NCBI RefSeq assembly: GCF_012163135.1
Contig: NZ_JAAVUP010000003.1
Coordinates: forward strand, 400,283-464,282
From: Neoroseomonas oryzicola
GTDB taxonomy: Bacteria > Pseudomonadota > Alphaproteobacteria > Acetobacterales > Acetobacteraceae
Reading direction: 5' to 3'
DNA length: 64,000 nt
Below, piece by piece: positions 2,104-9,133 of the stretch. Within the stretch, counting starts at the first letter, position 1; each line of letters opens with the position of its first letter. The translations under genes and the position numbers were made by a program. Below the pieces are notes generated by a model. The model was not told where the DNA came from. It worked only from the letters and a program-made list of their open reading frames with translations, and did no database searches.

Positions 2104-2688
2104 TTATTGCCGCCCGCGGCGCCGCTGGCCCTGGGCGCCGCCCCAGCCCGATCGCTGGACGCGCCGGCGCACCACCTCCACGCGCAGCCCCGCCGGATCG
2201 CCCAGCGCAGCGAGCAGCGCATCCAGCTGCGCCTGCTTGATGCCGAAGCCCGCGGCGCTGCCGCCTGCGTTGCGACCGGTGCCGTGCAGCAGCACCGGCC
2301 GGTCCCCGCCCTCGGGCGCGAGCAGCATGGCGGTGGTCCCGAGCGCGCCGCGCAGCGCCTGCGCGAGGCGCGGATCGCCGGTGCCGAAGGCGTCTTCCCC
2401 GGCCAGGTCCACCGCGCCCAGGACGCGGTAGGTGCCGCTGCCGGTCACCGGCGCGGGCAGGGCGGCCATGCCCTCGGGCGGATCCCAGGCGACCGGGACC
2501 GGGCCGAAGGCCAGGCGGTCGCCGCGCCACAGCGCCAGGCGCGGCTCGTCCTGGCCGGGCATCGGGCCGATGCGCAGGCGTGTGGCCTCCGCCCGCACCC
2601 AATCCGGGTCCCGCGCCGCGCGCAGCCGCCGATAGGCCAGGACCAGGAAGGTGCCGCCGCCGAGCAGCAGCAGGATGCCGAGGATCAT
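2104..2688 (-). CDS. Uncharacterised membrane-anchored protein, last gene of the ATP-grasp/DUF350 operon
   Basis: 194 residues. The start is the ATG overlapping the stop of the upstream gene by four bases (ATGA), which opens directly into a hydrophobic segment, MILGILLLLGGGTFLVLAY, followed by positive residues, so the protein is anchored by one N-terminal helix. The remaining 165 residues form a soluble domain ending in a very basic tail (RRRVQRSGWGGAQGQRRRGRQ-like). I do not recognise the fold; a segment reading VLLHGTGRNAGG is glycine-rich but not a known catalytic motif to me. Its job is implied only by position: it is the distal member of a seven-gene unit with two ligases and DUF350/DUF1190 proteins. 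Confidence 0.7.
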   Translation of the reverse strand: MILGILLLLGGGTFLVLAYRRLRAARDPDWVRAEATRLRIGPMPGQDEPRLALWRGDRLAFGPVPVAWDPPEGMAALPAPVTGSGTYRVLGAVDLAGEDAFGTGDPRLAQALRGALGTTAMLLAPEGGDRPVLLHGTGRNAGGSAAGFGIKQAQLDALLAALGDPAGLRVEVVRRRVQRSGWGGAQGQRRRGRQ

Positions 2689-3020
2689 CGCGGCGCCGCC
2701 TGCGGCTTCTCGGTGGGCAACGGCGCGCCGCGCGGCACCTGTGCCGGTCGGGTGGGCAGGGACGGGATCTGGCGCAGGCGCTCCGTTGCCTCGATGGCGG
2801 CGCGCGCGGCGGGGGCGGGCAGGCTGCCCTCCGCCGGGGCCCAGTAGCGCATGCCGCCGGGCGGCGGCGGGGAGCGCGCGGCGAGCGCGGACGCCTCGAC
2901 GAAGGCGCGGTCGGTCTCGGCGCCGTTCCAGCGGCCGATCGCGACCAGCAGCCCGCCCAGGAAGATCATCGCGGCGCCGCCGACCAGGTAGAGCCGCACG
3001 CGGGGCAGGACGTCGTTCAT
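2685..3020 (-). CDS. Uncharacterised single-span membrane protein
   Basis: 111 residues, start MNDVLPRVRLYLV. One predicted helix at about residues 10-29 (LYLVGGAAMIFLGGLLVAIG), then an 80-residue Pro/Ala-rich domain that would be periplasmic by the positive-inside rule. It overlaps both neighbours by four bases (ATGA on each side), so translation of the three distal genes is coupled. No family recognised. The segment RYWAPAEGSLPAP contains the aromatic-proline pattern RYWALPAPV also seen in the DUF1190 protein of the same operon (both read R-Y-W-A-x-P), possibly coincidental. Confidence 0.65.
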   Translation of the reverse strand: MNDVLPRVRLYLVGGAAMIFLGGLLVAIGRWNGAETDRAFVEASALAARSPPPPGGMRYWAPAEGSLPAPAARAAIEATERLRQIPSLPTRPAQVPRGAPLPTEKPQAAPR

Positions 3021-3571
3021 CGTGCGCCCCCCGGCAGGGCGAGGCGGCGGGCGAGGTCCTCCGCCGCGCCGGCGGCCGTGGCGCCACCCGCGGCAAGGGC
3101 GGCGATCAGCCCCGGCAGGTCGCGCGCCAGGGCCTGGCGGGCCTCGCCCTCCGGCGCAGTGGCACCGGCCTCGACCAGGGCGAGGGCCGCGGCGCGTTCG
3201 CGCGGGGCCATGCGCGCGGCGGCGCCGGCGAGTTCCGCCAGCAGGACCGGCAGGATCGCGGTCTGCAGGGCGGCGCGCAGGGGCGGCGGCAGGGCGGCGG
3301 GCGTGGGTGGGCGCGGCGCCTCCTTCGGCGCGTCGCTGGCCATCAGCCGTGCTTCCAGCGCCCGGCCGGGACCGCCGGCGAGGACAAGGCCAAGCCCCCC
3401 GCCAAGCAGCGGCGCGACGATCACGGCGAGCCAGTAGAGGCCCCCCCGCGGCGGCACGAGCGCGCCGACCGCGGCGAGGGCGACACCCGCGAGCAGCAGC
3501 ACCAGCACCACGCGCCGCTGCCAATCCCCCATCAGGGCCGGTGCCGTGGGCGCGCGGGTCTTCGCGGCCAT
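3017..3571 (-). CDS. Uncharacterised two-span membrane protein
   Basis: 184 residues. Two hydrophobic segments are clear at about residues 20-40 (VVLVLLLAGVALAAVGALV) and 46-66 (LYWLAVIVAPLLGGGLGLVLA). The remaining two thirds is an Ala/Leu-rich, probably helical soluble domain. It starts three bases after the stop of the DUF1190 gene and overlaps the next gene by four bases. No family assignment is possible from inspection. The small size, the hydrophobic hairpin and the operon position suggest a structural or assembly partner of the other membrane proteins here; that is inference only. Confidence 0.65.
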   Translation of the reverse strand: MAAKTRAPTAPALMGDWQRRVVLVLLLAGVALAAVGALVPPRGGLYWLAVIVAPLLGGGLGLVLAGGPGRALEARLMASDAPKEAPRPPTPAALPPPLRAALQTAILPVLLAELAGAAARMAPRERAAALALVEAGATAPEGEARQALARDLPGLIAALAAGGATAAGAAEDLARRLALPGGAR

Positions 3572-3574
3572 CGC

Positions 3575-4657
3575 TCAGCCCCCCGAGGAATAGGCGCGGC
3601 CGGTCGAGCCGAAGCCTGCGCGGGAGATGGTGGAGGCGGGGCGGGAGACGGTGGTGCCGCTCACCCGCGACCCCGAGCCGCTGGAATAGACTGCCATGCG
3701 ATTGGCGGGGGCGAGGCGGCGTGTGCCGCTGTCCCAGGCCTGCAGCGGCCCGGTGCCGCTGGCCGGGCGATAGGCCGCGGTGGGCTGGCGGTCGGCCGTC
3801 CAGGTCCAACCCTGGTAGCGCGGCCCGATGCCGCGGGCATAGGTGCTGCGGTAGCCGGAATTGTAGCCGATCCACCAGCCCGCCCGCGACGCGGTGCCGG
3901 TGGTGCCTGCCGTGGTCGGTGGCGGCACGGTCTCGGCGACCGTCATGGTCAGCGCGCTTTCGGGCAGTTCCACCTCGACGCACTGGCCCCAGGCGGCGCG
4001 GCAGGAGTCCTGCGTCGCGAAGCGGTTGGGCAGCGGCACGGGGCTGCGCTCGCAGGCCTGCCATTCGGCGCTGCAGGTCGCCTCGTCCGGGTAGATCGGG
4101 GCGAGGCGGAGATAGGCGAAGGTCAGCGCCGCCGGGGTGGCGGCGCCGCTGGAGACCTGCGCCACCTGCACGTTGCGCGGCGCGGGCTGCGTCGCGAGGG
4201 CGGCGCCGGCCTGCTGCACCGGGGCGGGCAACGCCCAGTAGCGCGCGGCGCGGTCCTGCAGGACCGGTTCGAGCGTCCGCTGGTCCCCCGGCGCGTTGGT
4301 CCAGCCCGCCAGCACCGGGCGCCAGTTGGGGCCGGTGGCGGCGAGGGTCTCGCCCTCGCAGGCGCCGCGGCCGAAGGTCGCCTCGCAGGCCGCGACGGTG
4401 GTGAATTGCGGGCGCGTCGCCACCTGTTCGCGCGCGATCACCTGTTCGAGCACGTCGCAGCGCGCGGGATCCTCGCCGAGGCGGCGATGCGCGGCGCGGC
4501 AGGCATCGAGCCGCGCTTCCGCCTGGCCCGGCAGGTCGGGCGGCGGCGCTTCGTCGCAGGCGGTCGCGCCGATGCCGAGCGTGACCAGCGCCGCGGCCCG
4601 CACGGTGCGGGACCGGCGCCGGGCCACGCCGGCCGTTTCAGCCGGACATGACGGCAT
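3575..4657 (-). CDS. DUF1190 (YgiB/YjfM-like) lipoprotein with duplicated Cys repeats
   Basis: 360 residues. It belongs to the DUF1190 family (E. coli YgiB, YjfM), usually about 200-230 residues, so this one is long. After a basic N-terminus comes a hydrophobic stretch ending A-T-A-C, a plausible lipobox. Paired-Cys repeats follow: RPQFTTVAACEATFGRGAC, APIYPDEATCSAEWQAC and RFATQDSCRAAWGQC, matching the YgiB pattern of aromatic-T-x-x-x-C-x5-7-C. The Gly/Ser/Thr-rich tail ends GFGSTGRAYSSGG, like the family's RGGFG tail. The ATG used overlaps the DUF350 stop by 20 bases; a GTG 30 bases further in (giving an N-terminus VARRRSRTV) would avoid most of that overlap. Neighbouring DUF350 and ATP-grasp genes reproduce the yjfLMC/ygiBC pairing. 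Confidence 0.85.
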   Translation of the reverse strand: MPSCPAETAGVARRRSRTVRAAALVTLGIGATACDEAPPPDLPGQAEARLDACRAAHRRLGEDPARCDVLEQVIAREQVATRPQFTTVAACEATFGRGACEGETLAATGPNWRPVLAGWTNAPGDQRTLEPVLQDRAARYWALPAPVQQAGAALATQPAPRNVQVAQVSSGAATPAALTFAYLRLAPIYPDEATCSAEWQACERSPVPLPNRFATQDSCRAAWGQCVEVELPESALTMTVAETVPPPTTAGTTGTASRAGWWIGYNSGYRSTYARGIGPRYQGWTWTADRQPTAAYRPASGTGPLQAWDSGTRRLAPANRMAVYSSGSGSRVSGTTVSRPASTISRAGFGSTGRAYSSGG

Positions 4658-5063
4658 TGTTCAGGATCCCGGCGCCGACCTGCATGAAGGCGATGAAGAC
4701 CGCCGCACCACCGACCTTGTCCTCCTCGATCTCCTGCTTCAGACGGCCCGCGAGCAGCGTGGTCAGCACGAGATGCGCGAGCAGCTGCACCGCGATGGCG
4801 ACGATGCACCAGATCACCTGGTCGAGCGGCCCGGCCGCCGAGCGCGCCACCGCCGCGATCGGCAGCACCATGCCGACCGCCTTGCCGCCGAAGGCCAGCG
4901 CGCAGGGCAGGTTCCCCGCGCGCAGCAGCTCCAGTTCCTTCTGCGGCGTGATGAACGAGACGATGACGAGGCCCGCCACCCAGAACGCGGCGCCGAGCGA
5001 GAAGGCGACGAGGAAGCTGAGCAGGGTGGCGGGAAAATGAGCGAGGATCTCGGCGGCGGTCAT
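4638..5063 (-). CDS. DUF350 (YjfL-like) four-helix membrane protein
   Basis: 141 residues with four hydrophobic segments (about 12-37, 52-72, 82-104, 118-138) and the charged loop LAGRLKQEIEEDKVGGAAV before the last helix, as in DUF350/YjfL proteins. The start ATG is preceded by AAGGAAC at a good distance. In E. coli, yjfL sits with yjfM (DUF1190) and yjfC (ATP-grasp ligase); the same three partners are adjacent here. The biochemical role of DUF350 is not established; it is usually treated as part of a membrane-associated peptide or amine ligation system. Confidence 0.88.
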   Translation of the reverse strand: MTAAEILAHFPATLLSFLVAFSLGAAFWVAGLVIVSFITPQKELELLRAGNLPCALAFGGKAVGMVLPIAAVARSAAGPLDQVIWCIVAIAVQLLAHLVLTTLLAGRLKQEIEEDKVGGAAVFIAFMQVGAGILNNAVMSG

Positions 5064-5086
5064 CCCGGTCGTTCCTTCTTGGCGCG

Positions 5087-6271
5087 TCAGCCGCGCAGGA
5101 TATGGGGCACGAAGCGCGCGGCCGGGCCGGTGACGGGCCCGCGCGATTCCCGGAAGGACAGGCCGGCCGGCTGCCCGCCGACCATCCAGACCGAGGCCGC
5201 GCAATGCACCTGGCCGCGCGCCGAGGGGAAGACCGGCAGCGGGCAATGGGCCTGGTAGAGCAGCGGGCCGACCTCGGCCTCCGGCACCGGGCCGATCGGC
5301 TGGCCGGGGAGGAAGACGTGCTCGCCGTCCCAGCCGCGGCGCGGCTTGGCGACCACCTCCCCCTGCGGCGGGCGGTCGAGGAAGGTCGGCAGTAGGTTCG
5401 GCGCGCCGGGGAACATGTGCCAGAGCAACGCCATCATCGTCTTGTCGGCGAGCAGCCTTACCCAGGCGCCGGGATAGATGCGGGTGCGCGAGCGGGGCAG
5501 CACCTCGGCGTTCGGCTCGTCCTCCATCCAGTCCCAGGGATAGATCTTGATCATCGCATCCTGGGGTTCGTCGCGGTCGTCGGTGAAGCGCTGGGCATCG
5601 GCGTCCCAGCCGACCTGCTCGATCGAGCAGATGCGCGCAGCGAGGTTCGTCTTGCCCGCGATCTCCGCGAGGTATTCGGCGTCGAAGCGTTCCGTGGTGT
5701 CGGCGGGACGGCCGTTCGCTTCCGTCGCGCCGCCGCAGGCGATCATGAAGCGCGCGGGCAGGCCGATCTGCGGGATGTGCTCGGACAGCTTCTCGTAGAG
5801 CAGGTTTTCCTGCGAATCCCCGCTGCGTCCGCTGGCGGACTGCCAGGATTCGAACCATTCCCACTGCACGAAGGACGCCTCGGCGAGGCCGAAGGGCGAA
5901 TCCGCCTCGTAGTCCGTCAGCATGGGCGTGCCGTCGGGCGCGAAGGAGAAATCCATTCGCCCGTAGAGCGGGGCATCCTTGCTGCGCCAGGATTGCGCGA
6001 TGGCTTCCTGCATCGCGGGGCTCTGGATGCCGAAATAGGCGTAGTCGCCGGAGGCGACGAGTTCCTCGACCGCCTGGTAGCAGCGCGCCTGGATGCCCTT
6101 GGCGGCCTCGAGCAGCGCATCCGACGCCGCAGCGTCGATGAGGTAGGCGGCGTCCGTCACCCACCAGGGCTCGCCATCGGGGTTCGGCACGTTGAGGCCG
6201 AGCTCGCGCAGCCGACCCTCGAAGAGCGAGGGCGTCGTCACCGGTTCGCGCCGGAAGGGCGGATAGGGCAT
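5087..6271 (-). CDS. Glutathionylspermidine synthase-like ATP-grasp ligase (YgiC/YjfC type), copy 1
   Basis: 394 residues, close to the 386 of E. coli YgiC and YjfC. Family landmarks: LYGRMDFSF, IKIYPWDWM, LLWHMFPGAPNLLPT, VAKPRRGWDG and the C-terminal SVWMVGGQPAGLSFRES...RFVPHIL. These proteins carry the ATP-grasp synthetase half of GspS without the amidase half; the true substrates of YgiC/YjfC are not known. At the metal-binding strand this copy reads TDYEADSP where YgiC reads ENNADTP, so the usual Glu/Asn pair is changed to Asp/Glu. An 11-base gap separates it from the paralogous gene upstream. The start is the ATG at MPYPPFRREP. Confidence 0.88.
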   Translation of the reverse strand: MPYPPFRREPVTTPSLFEGRLRELGLNVPNPDGEPWWVTDAAYLIDAAASDALLEAAKGIQARCYQAVEELVASGDYAYFGIQSPAMQEAIAQSWRSKDAPLYGRMDFSFAPDGTPMLTDYEADSPFGLAEASFVQWEWFESWQSASGRSGDSQENLLYEKLSEHIPQIGLPARFMIACGGATEANGRPADTTERFDAEYLAEIAGKTNLAARICSIEQVGWDADAQRFTDDRDEPQDAMIKIYPWDWMEDEPNAEVLPRSRTRIYPGAWVRLLADKTMMALLWHMFPGAPNLLPTFLDRPPQGEVVAKPRRGWDGEHVFLPGQPIGPVPEAEVGPLLYQAHCPLPVFPSARGQVHCAASVWMVGGQPAGLSFRESRGPVTGPAARFVPHILRG

Positions 6272-6282
6272 GGCGGCCGCGT

Positions 6283-7443
6283 CTACAGGATGACGTGCGG
6301 CACGAAGCGGTCCTCGAAGGTCGTCACCCTGTCGTCCCCCTCCCGGATCCCGAGGCCGGCGGGTTCGTCGCCGACCATCCAGACGCCCATGACGGGATAG
6401 GCGAGGCCCTTCGGCGTCGCATGTCCCGGCAGCGGCGCCCATTGTTGCCAGATGGTGGGCGAGGGGGGCAAACCTTCCGCGACCTCGGTCGATTCATCCC
6501 GCGCGGTCCCCTCGACCGTCATGCCCCATCCTTCGAGCCCCAGCGCCGGCTTGCCGATGGCCGGCCCATCGATCGCCGCGCGGTCGAGCGAGGCGGGCAG
6601 CAGCAGAGGATGGCGCGGGAACATCTCCCAGAGTGTGACGAGGATCGCCTTGCTCGCGTGCAGCATCCGCCGCGCCGGTTCGATCCAGCGCGTGCGGCCG
6701 AGCGGCAGCAGGCGGCCGCCTTCCTCGGCATCGAGCCAGTCCCACGGGTAGAGCTTGAAGCAGGCGGCGAGCGGGGCGCCATCCGGCGTGACGAAGCCGG
6801 TCTCGGCCTGCCAGGAGATGTCGTCGACGGGCAGGAATTCGGCCTCGTGCCCCGCGGCGCGGGCGGTGGCCATGAGGTAGGCGACCTGGGCGATCTCGTC
6901 CTCCCGGTCGCGTTCGGCCGCGAAGTGGATCCGGCGCGGCAGACCCATCCGCGGCCAGCGCGCGACCAGCGCGTCGTCGATCGCGTTCCATTGGTCGCTG
7001 CCGGGTGCGTCGGGGGTTTCCTCGAACCAGGCGAGCTGCACCGTCGCGGCCTCGAGCAGCGCGGCGGGCGTCTCGGCGTTGAACTCATACAGCTTGACCG
7101 AACCGTCGGCGGGATCGAGGCGGAAGTCGAAGCGGCCGTAGAGCGAGGGTTCGCGCAGGCGGTGTGAGTCCTCGACGAGGGCGGCGAGGCGCGGGGTGAA
7201 GCCGAAGGCGGCGTAGTCGCCGCGCGCGACGACGCGGTCGACCGCCGCGGCGATCATGCCGTTCAGCTCGCGCGCGGCCGCCTCCATCGTCGCGACGGCT
7301 TCTGGCGTGACCGCGTAGCAGGCATCGCGCGCCCAGTATTCGCGACCGTCCGGGGTGTGGAAGGTGAAGCCGAGCGCCTCGGCGCGCAGGGGGAAGGCGT
7401 CGTCGCGCCGCAGCGCGCGGCGGGTGATGGCGGGGCTGGGCAT
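6283..7443 (-). CDS. Glutathionylspermidine synthase-like ATP-grasp ligase (YgiC/YjfC type), copy 2
   Basis: 386 residues, first gene of the operon and a diverged paralogue of the next gene. Shared landmarks are YWARDACYAV, SLYGRFDFRL, FKLYPWDWL, TLWEMFPRHPLLLPA, GKPALGLEGWG and GVWMVGDEPAGLGIREG...RFVPHVI, closer to YgiC than copy 1 is. It keeps the metal-site pattern YEFNAETP. Neither copy keeps the Arg of the YgiC KPxxxREG loop (this one reads KPALGLEG). The ATG at MPSPAITRR is only about 10 bases downstream of a good -10 box and lacks a Shine-Dalgarno sequence, so the message may be nearly leaderless. Two ligases could act in sequence or as a heterodimer. Confidence 0.88.
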   Translation of the reverse strand: MPSPAITRRALRRDDAFPLRAEALGFTFHTPDGREYWARDACYAVTPEAVATMEAAARELNGMIAAAVDRVVARGDYAAFGFTPRLAALVEDSHRLREPSLYGRFDFRLDPADGSVKLYEFNAETPAALLEAATVQLAWFEETPDAPGSDQWNAIDDALVARWPRMGLPRRIHFAAERDREDEIAQVAYLMATARAAGHEAEFLPVDDISWQAETGFVTPDGAPLAACFKLYPWDWLDAEEGGRLLPLGRTRWIEPARRMLHASKAILVTLWEMFPRHPLLLPASLDRAAIDGPAIGKPALGLEGWGMTVEGTARDESTEVAEGLPPSPTIWQQWAPLPGHATPKGLAYPVMGVWMVGDEPAGLGIREGDDRVTTFEDRFVPHVIL

Positions 7444-7546: not shown

Positions 7547-9133
7547 ATGGACCGTCGCACGCTGCTGCAGGGCGCCGCCGCTGCAGCCTTTGCCTCCGCC
7601 GCGCCCGCCATCGCCCAGCCCGCCCGCACGGCGACGCTGCGCTTCGTGCCGCAGGCGAACCTCACGGCGCTGGACCCGATCTGGACCAGCGCCATCGTGA
7701 CGCAGATGCACGGCTACCACGTCTACGACACGCTCTATGCCGTGGACGGGAACCAGCAGCCCAAGCCGCAGATGGCCCAGGGGCACAGCGTCAGCCCCGA
7801 TTTCCGCGTTTGGCACATCCGCCTGCGCGAGGGGCTGCGCTTCCACGACGGCGAGCCCGTCCGCGCGCAGGACTGCGCCGCGAGCCTCGAGCGCTGGGCG
7901 AAGCGCGACCCCTTCGGCCAGATCCTCGCCGCCGTGGTGGACCGCTGGGGCGCGAGCGACGACCGCACCATCGAGATCCGCCTGAAGCGGCCCTTCCCGC
8001 TGCTGCTCGACGCACTGGCCAAGCCCGATGCGAACGTGCCCTTCGTCATGCCGGAGCGCCTGGCGCGGACCGACGCCAACACCCAGGTGTCCGAGGTCGT
8101 GGGGTCCGGCCCCTATCGCTTCGTGCGCGACGAGTTCGTCTCGGGCAGCCGCGTCGTCTATGCGAAGAACGATGCCTATGTGCCGCGGCAGGAGCCGTCG
8201 GACTGGGCCTCGGGCGGCAAGGTCGCCTATTTCCCGCGCATCGAGTGGCACATCCTGCCCGACCCCGCGACGGCGTCCGCCGCGCTGCAGAGCGGCGAGG
8301 TGGATTGGGTGGAGCAGCCGCTGTCGGACCTGATCCCGACGCTGCAGCGCAACCGCAACATCGCGATCGACATCCTGAACCCGGCCGGCCTGCTGTCGAT
8401 CATGCGCCTGAACCATCTGCAGGCGCCGTTCAACGACGTGAAGGTCCGGCAGGCGGTGGCGCTGTCGGTGGACCAGCCGGAATACATGCAGGCGACGCTC
8501 GGCAGCGACCGTTCGGTCTGGCGCGAATGCCGTAGCCTGTTTCCCTGCGGCACGCCCTTCGGCGTCGAGGACCTGTCGGAGTTCAACCGCGCGCCGCGCA
8601 GCCTCGATCGCGCGCGCGCGGCGCTGCAGGCCTCGGGCTACAAGGGCGAGAAGGTCGTCATCATCAACCCGACCGACTTCCCGCTGATCGGCCCGCATGG
8701 GCAGCTCACCGCCGACCGCCTGCGCCGCATCGGGATGAACGTGGAGCTCGCGGAAACCGATTGGGGCACCGTGGTGCAGCGCCGCGTGCGCAAGGAACCG
8801 GTCGAGCAGGGGGGGTGGAGCATCTTCCACACCTATGGCTCCTCCCTCGCCTACCTGAACCCGGCGGTTTCCTCGCTGGTGAAGGGGCCGGGGGCGAATG
8901 GCTGGTTCGGCTGGTACACCAGCCCGCGCGCCGAGGAGCTGATCCAGGCCTGGCTCGACGCCGGGGAGCCGGACCGCCAGCGCAGCCTCGCGAACGAGAT
9001 CAACAAGCTGGCGCAGGACGACGTCGCGACCATCCCGCTCGGCCAGTTCTACATCCGCACCGCCCATCGGCGCAGCATCACGGGCCTGGCGAAGGGCAGC
9101 ATGCCCTATCCCTGGGGCGTGCGGCCGGCCTGA
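7547..9133 (+). CDS. ABC transporter solute-binding protein, family 5 (peptide/nickel/opine type)
   Basis: 528 residues, a usual length for DppA/OppA-like proteins. N-terminal signal MDRRTLLQGAAAAAFASAAPAIAQPA has an R-R pair before a short hydrophobic run and an A-x-A cleavage site, compatible with Tat or Sec export to the periplasm. Family-5 features: LTALDPIW...VYDTLYAVD near the start, RLREGLRFHDGEPVRAQDC around residue 100, VGSGPYRF, and APFNDVKVRQAVALSVDQ in the second lobe. No permease or ATPase genes are adjacent, so it is an orphan receptor in this window. It is clearly paralogous to the protein at 13837-15417. The ligand cannot be told from sequence. Confidence 0.92.
   Translation: MDRRTLLQGAAAAAFASAAPAIAQPARTATLRFVPQANLTALDPIWTSAIVTQMHGYHVYDTLYAVDGNQQPKPQMAQGHSVSPDFRVWHIRLREGLRFHDGEPVRAQDCAASLERWAKRDPFGQILAAVVDRWGASDDRTIEIRLKRPFPLLLDALAKPDANVPFVMPERLARTDANTQVSEVVGSGPYRFVRDEFVSGSRVVYAKNDAYVPRQEPSDWASGGKVAYFPRIEWHILPDPATASAALQSGEVDWVEQPLSDLIPTLQRNRNIAIDILNPAGLLSIMRLNHLQAPFNDVKVRQAVALSVDQPEYMQATLGSDRSVWRECRSLFPCGTPFGVEDLSEFNRAPRSLDRARAALQASGYKGEKVVIINPTDFPLIGPHGQLTADRLRRIGMNVELAETDWGTVVQRRVRKEPVEQGGWSIFHTYGSSLAYLNPAVSSLVKGPGANGWFGWYTSPRAEELIQAWLDAGEPDRQRSLANEINKLAQDDVATIPLGQFYIRTAHRRSITGLAKGSMPYPWGVRPA

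Follow-up and report, generated by a model that had tools for sequence, protein, structure and literature searches.

A C-terminal tail that accompanies YgiC/YjfC-type ligases, and a twin-ligase operon of Neoroseomonas oryzicola as a candidate peptide-polyamine ligation system

We analyzed a stretch of 64,000 nucleotides from Neoroseomonas oryzicola (contig NZ_JAAVUP010000003.1, positions 400,283 to 464,282; hereafter the window), in which a minus-strand operon running from 7443 to 2104 comprises seven open reading frames (ORFs) encoding two ATP-grasp ligases (LigA and LigB), a DUF350 membrane protein, a DUF1190 protein and three small membrane proteins (m5, m6 and m7). Sequence comparison of ligase loci showed that a short C-terminal tail, carried in this operon by the DUF1190 protein, goes with the ligase, whatever body carries the tail. 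The tail, the pairing of the two ligases and the conservation of the operon were observed directly. We lean slightly towards the view that the locus represents the YgiC/YjfC peptide-polyamine ligase system in a form elaborated in this lineage, and that its ligases would amidate the tail with a polyamine.

The DUF1190 protein ends in SRAGFGSTGRAYSSGG, which is nearly invariant among its orthologues. The C-terminus of E. coli YjfM is SRGGYGRSSSARGHWGG, and that of E. coli YgiB has the form RGGFG...MGG. For the survey, a tail was defined as the end of a same-strand ORF beside a ligase that matches [RSTQ][GASQ]GFG followed by 3-38 residues, and 70 ligase loci were covered, 65 of them decidable. 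The tail was present beside the ligase in 63 of the 65 decidable loci, compared with 9 of the 10,279 remaining ORFs in those loci. The two misses were a locus with a SHGGFG variant (L048) and a locus in which the tailed DUF1190 gene lies on the opposite strand (L060). Among the 52 distinct tails, which include both E. coli ones, the last residue was Gly in 35, Ser in 14, Thr in 2 and Ala in 1, and in the portion after xGFG, Ser made up 35% and Gly 25%, while 2 of the 568 residues were acidic. The loci with the LigA/LigB pair carry RAGFG, while nearly all other loci carry RGGFG and a few carry RSGFG.

The tail was distributed over several phyla, the other-phylum sample consisting of three loci among those fetched with LigA, and it often sat on bodies unlike DUF1190. 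In particular, the tailed partners in Verrucomicrobium, Gemmataceae, an Actinomycetota metagenome-assembled genome, genome G335 and the second-type Roseomonas loci had dissimilar bodies and matched no Pfam family. In the second-type Roseomonas loci, which include the third ligase of the host genome, the ligase is directly preceded by a gene for a membrane-anchored tailed protein of approximately 90-110 residues. In the Pseudomonadota sample, the DUF1190 matches with an adjoining ligase were all tailed. Four DUF1190 matches had neither a tail nor a ligase in their 3-kb loci: one (L101) was from genome G235, which has no GSP_synth gene, and the other three (L102, L105 and L106) matched weakly and came from G335, in which the real tail protein adjoins the ligase. 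Five loci of 13-19 kb contained the ligase and the tail and lacked DUF350. The host genome (5.3 Mb) contains three GSP_synth ligases in two loci, and two tail proteins were found, one per locus; a search of this genome with the tail pattern, restricted to CGN arginine codons, returned 60 sites, two of which were at the C-terminus of tail-type proteins. As a separate observation, the third ligase (L001, G000:C1 near 1162033) is of the canonical type; a tailed mini-protein is encoded upstream of it and DUF350 downstream, and in the sister species this locus adjoins genes resembling sdhCDAB.

The operon and its elements of interest have the following positions in the window:

6283-7443, minus strand: LigA, a YgiC/YjfC-type ATP-grasp ligase (GSP_synth), 386 residues (Pfam PF03738, E 2e-100; PDB YgiC 7uk8, E 8e-56; residue table)
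5087-6271, minus strand: LigB, a second, divergent ligase paralogue, 394 residues (PF03738, E 3e-71; YgiC 7uk8, E 2e-48; own clade)
5906-5914, minus strand: LigB metal-site codons D120-Y121-E122, with D and E replacing GspS E330 and N332
4638-5063, minus strand: DUF350 (YjfL-like) membrane protein, 141 residues (Pfam PF03994, E 2e-26)
3575-4657, minus strand: DUF1190 (YgiB/YjfM-like) protein, 360 residues (Pfam PF06693, E 2e-12, in two stretches; alignment)
3578-3622, minus strand: C-terminal tail RAGFGSTGRAYSSGG, proposed ligase acceptor (tail comparisons)
3017-3571, minus strand: m5, two transmembrane helices and a helical domain, 184 residues, unplaced (AlphaFold2 model)
2685-3020, minus strand: m6, one transmembrane helix and a Pro-rich tail, 111 residues, unplaced (transmembrane prediction)
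2104-2688, minus strand: m7, N-terminal transmembrane helix and a predicted YkuD fold without the catalytic Cys, 194 residues (AlphaFold2 model, structure search)
2236-2289, minus strand: m7 degenerate active-site segment LHGTGRNAGGSAAGFGIK (G147 invariant; register from hhalign)

An earlier note on this DNA, made from the letters and ORF translations, had described a seven-gene single-strand unit with gaps of at most 23 bases, which the ORF calls bore out: the intergenic gaps were 11, 23 and 3 bases. Its count of three 4-base overlaps was wrong, as we counted two (m5/m6 and m6/m7). The overlap between DUF350 and DUF1190 is 20 bases with a DUF1190 start at ATG 4657; with a start at GTG 4627, the two genes lie 10 bases apart. 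The latter codon is better conserved and is probably the translation start. A scan for promoters and terminators yielded nothing above chance.

All seven genes occurred in unchanged order in each of the 14 relatives with enough assembled sequence, in loci fetched with LigA (L004-L008, L010-L014, L016, L018, L020 and L022). Five further loci were undecidable; L009, L015, L017 and L019 end at a contig edge, and L021, from Pseudoroseomonas cervicalis, was rejected as a locus without the small genes, as an assembly gap of N directly follows its DUF350 gene. The two 4-base overlaps were kept in most of the complete relatives, and the closest relative of the host Neoroseomonas was N. marina. The ratio of nonsynonymous to synonymous divergence (dN/dS) was below 1 for all seven genes, with m5-m7 evolving fastest. 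Because the order was kept in every complete locus and dN/dS was below 1 throughout, the arrangement of the operon is not due to chance. Among 150 family genomes, the LigA/LigB pair was present in three; m7 was found in exactly these three, and m5 in these three plus two marginal fragments. The earlier note had suggested checking whether the small proteins co-occur with the ligase pair and had considered that the small genes might be absent or scattered where the ligases are kept; apart from the marginal m5 fragments, m5 and m7 were absent from the sampled genomes without the pair, and no complete pair locus lacked any of the three genes. Separately, synonymous divergence (dS) between the window and N. 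marina (L004) was 0.23-0.40 for m5-m7 versus 0.05-0.15 for the four upstream genes, a contrast that may reflect recombination inside the operon.

Both ligases matched the GSP_synth profile over its full length (residues 21-385 of LigA and 21-391 of LigB, with the E values listed above), and their nearest solved structures were E. coli YgiC and YjfC. LigB, by this profile match, is a member of the GSP_synth family. In the tree, LigA and LigB each formed one clade with a support of 100; the two were united on long branches, so their sister relation is unsure. LigA and LigB are two old, separately monophyletic paralogues that are always paired. The GspS residues R316, D318, E330, N332, K498, K533 and R598, which we take from the GspS structure to be the catalytic set, were present in 22 of 22 LigA rows. 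LigB had Asp at E330 and Glu at N332 in 22 of 22 rows, compared with Glu and Asn in all 76 other aligned ligases, and kept R316, D318, K498, K533 and R598 in every row; a few of the rows counted for the ligases are duplicates of the window's own proteins. At the position of GspS Arg538, we found Leu in all 22 LigA rows and Trp, Gly or Asp in LigB, as opposed to Arg in 53 of 54 others.

The DUF350 protein was 30% identical to E. coli YjfL in the alignment. The DUF1190 protein scored 48.1 bits against PF06693 (cut-off 22), and all 15 orthologues matched this family. Thus, the earlier assignment of two GspS-like ligases, a DUF350 and a DUF1190 protein agreed with the Pfam match of each. In the DUF1190 sequence, Cys34 is followed by Asp, and the protein is likely an inner-membrane lipoprotein. 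Its body is approximately 120 residues longer than usual and contains a second four-Cys segment; when the two Cys segments were compared as a duplication, the similarity was weak (P 0.0026).

A Pfam and NCBIfam scan gave no family match for m5, m6 or m7. The AlphaFold2 model of m5 (predicted local distance difference test score, pLDDT, 84) contained two transmembrane helices and a helical domain; its placement by structure was rejected, as it matched only unspecific helical-repeat and designed proteins. A single transmembrane helix was predicted in m6, the remainder of which is Pro-rich. The m7 model (pLDDT 81) consisted of a transmembrane helix and a folded domain, and the best 50 VIA matches of this model were all L,D-transpeptidases, with Z-scores of 9.4-12.5; the best superposition (Z 12.5) gave 2.7 Å over 111 residues, and the best Foldseek E value was 0.005. 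With reference to the canonical motif LHGT...S-x-G-C-[IV]-R, the LHG strand is kept in m7, as is the Ser of the active-site loop, and the position of the catalytic Cys is Gly (G147) in 15 of 15 proteins. We therefore predict m7 to be a membrane-anchored protein with an L,D-transpeptidase fold that has lost the catalytic Cys. No Lys or Arg precedes its transmembrane helix and five follow it; because of this charge pattern, the sequence suggests that the domain is cytosolic, unlike that of an ordinary L,D-transpeptidase. Hence, of the three membrane proteins that the earlier note could not place, m5 and m6 remain unplaced and m7 has acquired a predicted fold.

For E. coli YgiC and YjfC, a peptide-spermidine ligase activity has been published, as stated in the papers that cite the enzymology (Pederick 2023, cited in PMC12568646 and PMC10948618), and RefSeq product naming agrees with it. 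The earlier statement that the E. coli system has no proven substrate was thus outdated with respect to activity and held for the physiological peptide, as our literature search found no natural peptide substrate of the YgiC/YjfC ligases. The host appears equipped for polyamine supply, with a homologue of the spermidine synthase SpeE (E 6e-53) and genes of the ornithine/arginine-decarboxylase type. GspS joins the Gly carboxylate of glutathione to spermidine. By analogy, the ligases would phosphorylate the carboxylate of the C-terminal Gly or Ser of the tail and couple the phosphorylated tail to spermidine or a similar polyamine. The coupling would take place in the cytosol, before or during export, and its product would be a protein that is anchored in the membrane and bears a cationic amide at its C-terminus. 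LigB, with its putatively rebuilt metal site, would couple the same tail a second time or in an alternative way, and m5, m6 and m7 would take part in holding, delivering or sensing the tailed protein, m7 acting as a non-catalytic peptide-binding L,D-transpeptidase fold. In this scheme, we infer that the bond is an amide, which amine is coupled, when each step occurs and what LigB and m5-m7 do. In a more tentative and somewhat doubtful generalization, the YgiC-type ligases of several phyla would form a C-terminal polyamination system for the RGGFG tails of membrane-anchored proteins, expanded in this operon to two ligases, one tail and a dead L,D-transpeptidase fold. Trypanothione bridges two glutathiones, and it is pure speculation that two ligases acting on one tail might similarly bridge two lipoproteins via one polyamine.

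Several observations weigh against tail polyamination, which, judged from sequence patterns, stands as a candidate modification. With a lipobox or an N-terminal anchor, the mature tail should come to lie outside the cytoplasm, and an ATP-grasp ligase is expected to be cytosolic; therefore, the coupling must precede export. Gly is not required at the tail end, as one third of the tails have Ser, Thr or Ala there. For m7, a comparison with the L,D-transpeptidase profiles of relatives by hhalign gave the right register but was weak (P 0.046), and the PF03734 profile, searched at E values up to 10, matched none of the 15 m7 proteins; because the profile comparison was weak, the fold claim rests on the model. 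The altered metal pair of LigB could equally mean lost catalysis, in which case LigB would be catalytically dead and would regulate LigA or serve it as a scaffold, and the operon would perform a single reaction. We regard a dead LigB as a serious contender that falls a little short of probable: its two replacements affect metal-site residues that are invariant in all other aligned members, and LigB is always accompanied by LigA, but both replacements are themselves acidic and invariant, and the other five residues of the set are kept. Because of these five residues and a dN/dS of 0.04-0.31, LigB is not decaying, and its sequence inclines us to a metal site that was rebuilt rather than lost.

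The tail might instead serve the ligase or another partner for docking, sorting or regulation, the amidated substrate being a different peptide or metabolite. We consider this unlikely, though still worth weighing, since the Ser/Gly-rich composition, poor in information outside xGFG, resembles a flexible binding motif, and mature tails are expected to lie away from the ATP-dependent enzyme. However, the conserved segment is at the extreme C-terminus, and the last residue of each of the 52 distinct tails is small and offers a free carboxylate, features that fit a GspS-type acceptor better than an internal docking motif. The earlier note had assigned the extra membrane proteins to a channel or assembly module, and a machine of this kind built from m5, m6, m7 and DUF350 would agree with the predicted transmembrane helices of all four and with the constant association of the three small genes; with one helix in m6, two in m5, no resemblance to a known channel and a predicted L,D-transpeptidase fold in the soluble domain of m7, we found nothing in support of that module and judge it improbable. 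A soluble thiol product, such as glutathionylspermidine or a trypanothione-like compound, is suggested by the Pfam family name and a distant similarity to trypanothione synthetase, but it is very improbable, as the ligases have no amidase domain, their neighbours are membrane proteins and, according to the citing paper, glutathionylspermidine is not a product of YgiC (Sui 2012, cited in PMC12506659). The earlier note had proposed a cell-envelope ligation system with the lipoprotein as target or anchor; our results support an envelope-linked system whose likely target is the lipoprotein, and amidation of the tail with a polyamine is the form of it that we prefer.

The operon is flanked in the window by a plus-strand cardiolipin synthase gene (TIGR04265; 2-1327, truncated by the window start) and a plus-strand gene (1385-2038) for a 217-residue protein that is rich in Ala and Pro, carries a zinc-ribbon-like motif of four cysteines in its C-terminal part and matched no family above the cut-off. 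Both are convergent to the operon, and the same arrangement was found in N. marina (L004). On the other side, divergent from LigA, lies a plus-strand gene for a family 5 peptide-type solute-binding protein (7547-9133); it was rejected as a constant neighbour, as it adjoins the operon in only some relatives.

The occurrence of the tail on dissimilar membrane-anchored proteins makes it a strong, testable candidate for the substrate of YgiC/YjfC ligases, and, if true, this would mean C-terminal polyamination of bacterial envelope proteins. The twin-ligase operon is a natural experiment in which the enzyme pair and the tail (RGGFG to RAGFG) changed together. Our literature search found no description of the tail; the key enzymology paper (Pederick 2023) was outside its reach, and we make no claim of priority.

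Upon comparison with known systems, the term undescribed in the earlier note could not be upheld: the core of ligase, DUF350 and DUF1190 is already known as YgiBC and YjfLMC, has been described together, including with PspA operons (PMC11237479), and has a published ligase activity. E. coli ygiBC shares the ligase family, the DUF1190 partner family and the YgiB tail, but it has one ligase, no adjoining DUF350 and no m5-m7, and its DUF1190 body is 223 residues long instead of 360. In E. coli yjfIJKLMC, the DUF350 protein (YjfL), the tailed DUF1190 protein (YjfM) and the ligase (YjfC) are likewise adjacent; in contrast, that operon has one ligase and no m5-m7, and it includes a PspA-like YjfJ, DUF2170 and DUF2491, which are missing here. 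The phage shock protein (PSP)-linked class of ATP-grasp/DUF350/DUF1190 operons (PMC11237479) has the same three core families, whereas the present unit has no PspA, chaperone or potassium-channel gene and contains two ligases and three further membrane proteins; neither a PspA nor a CesT/Tir-like (DUF2170) gene was found among its seven genes. The m7 model resembles the L,D-transpeptidases (YkuD) in its superposition, His-Gly strand and active-site-loop Ser, and differs from them in the Cys-to-Gly replacement, the missing Pfam match and the charge pattern around its helix. What is new here is the paired LigA and LigB paralogues, the fold prediction for m7 and the association of the tail with the ligase.

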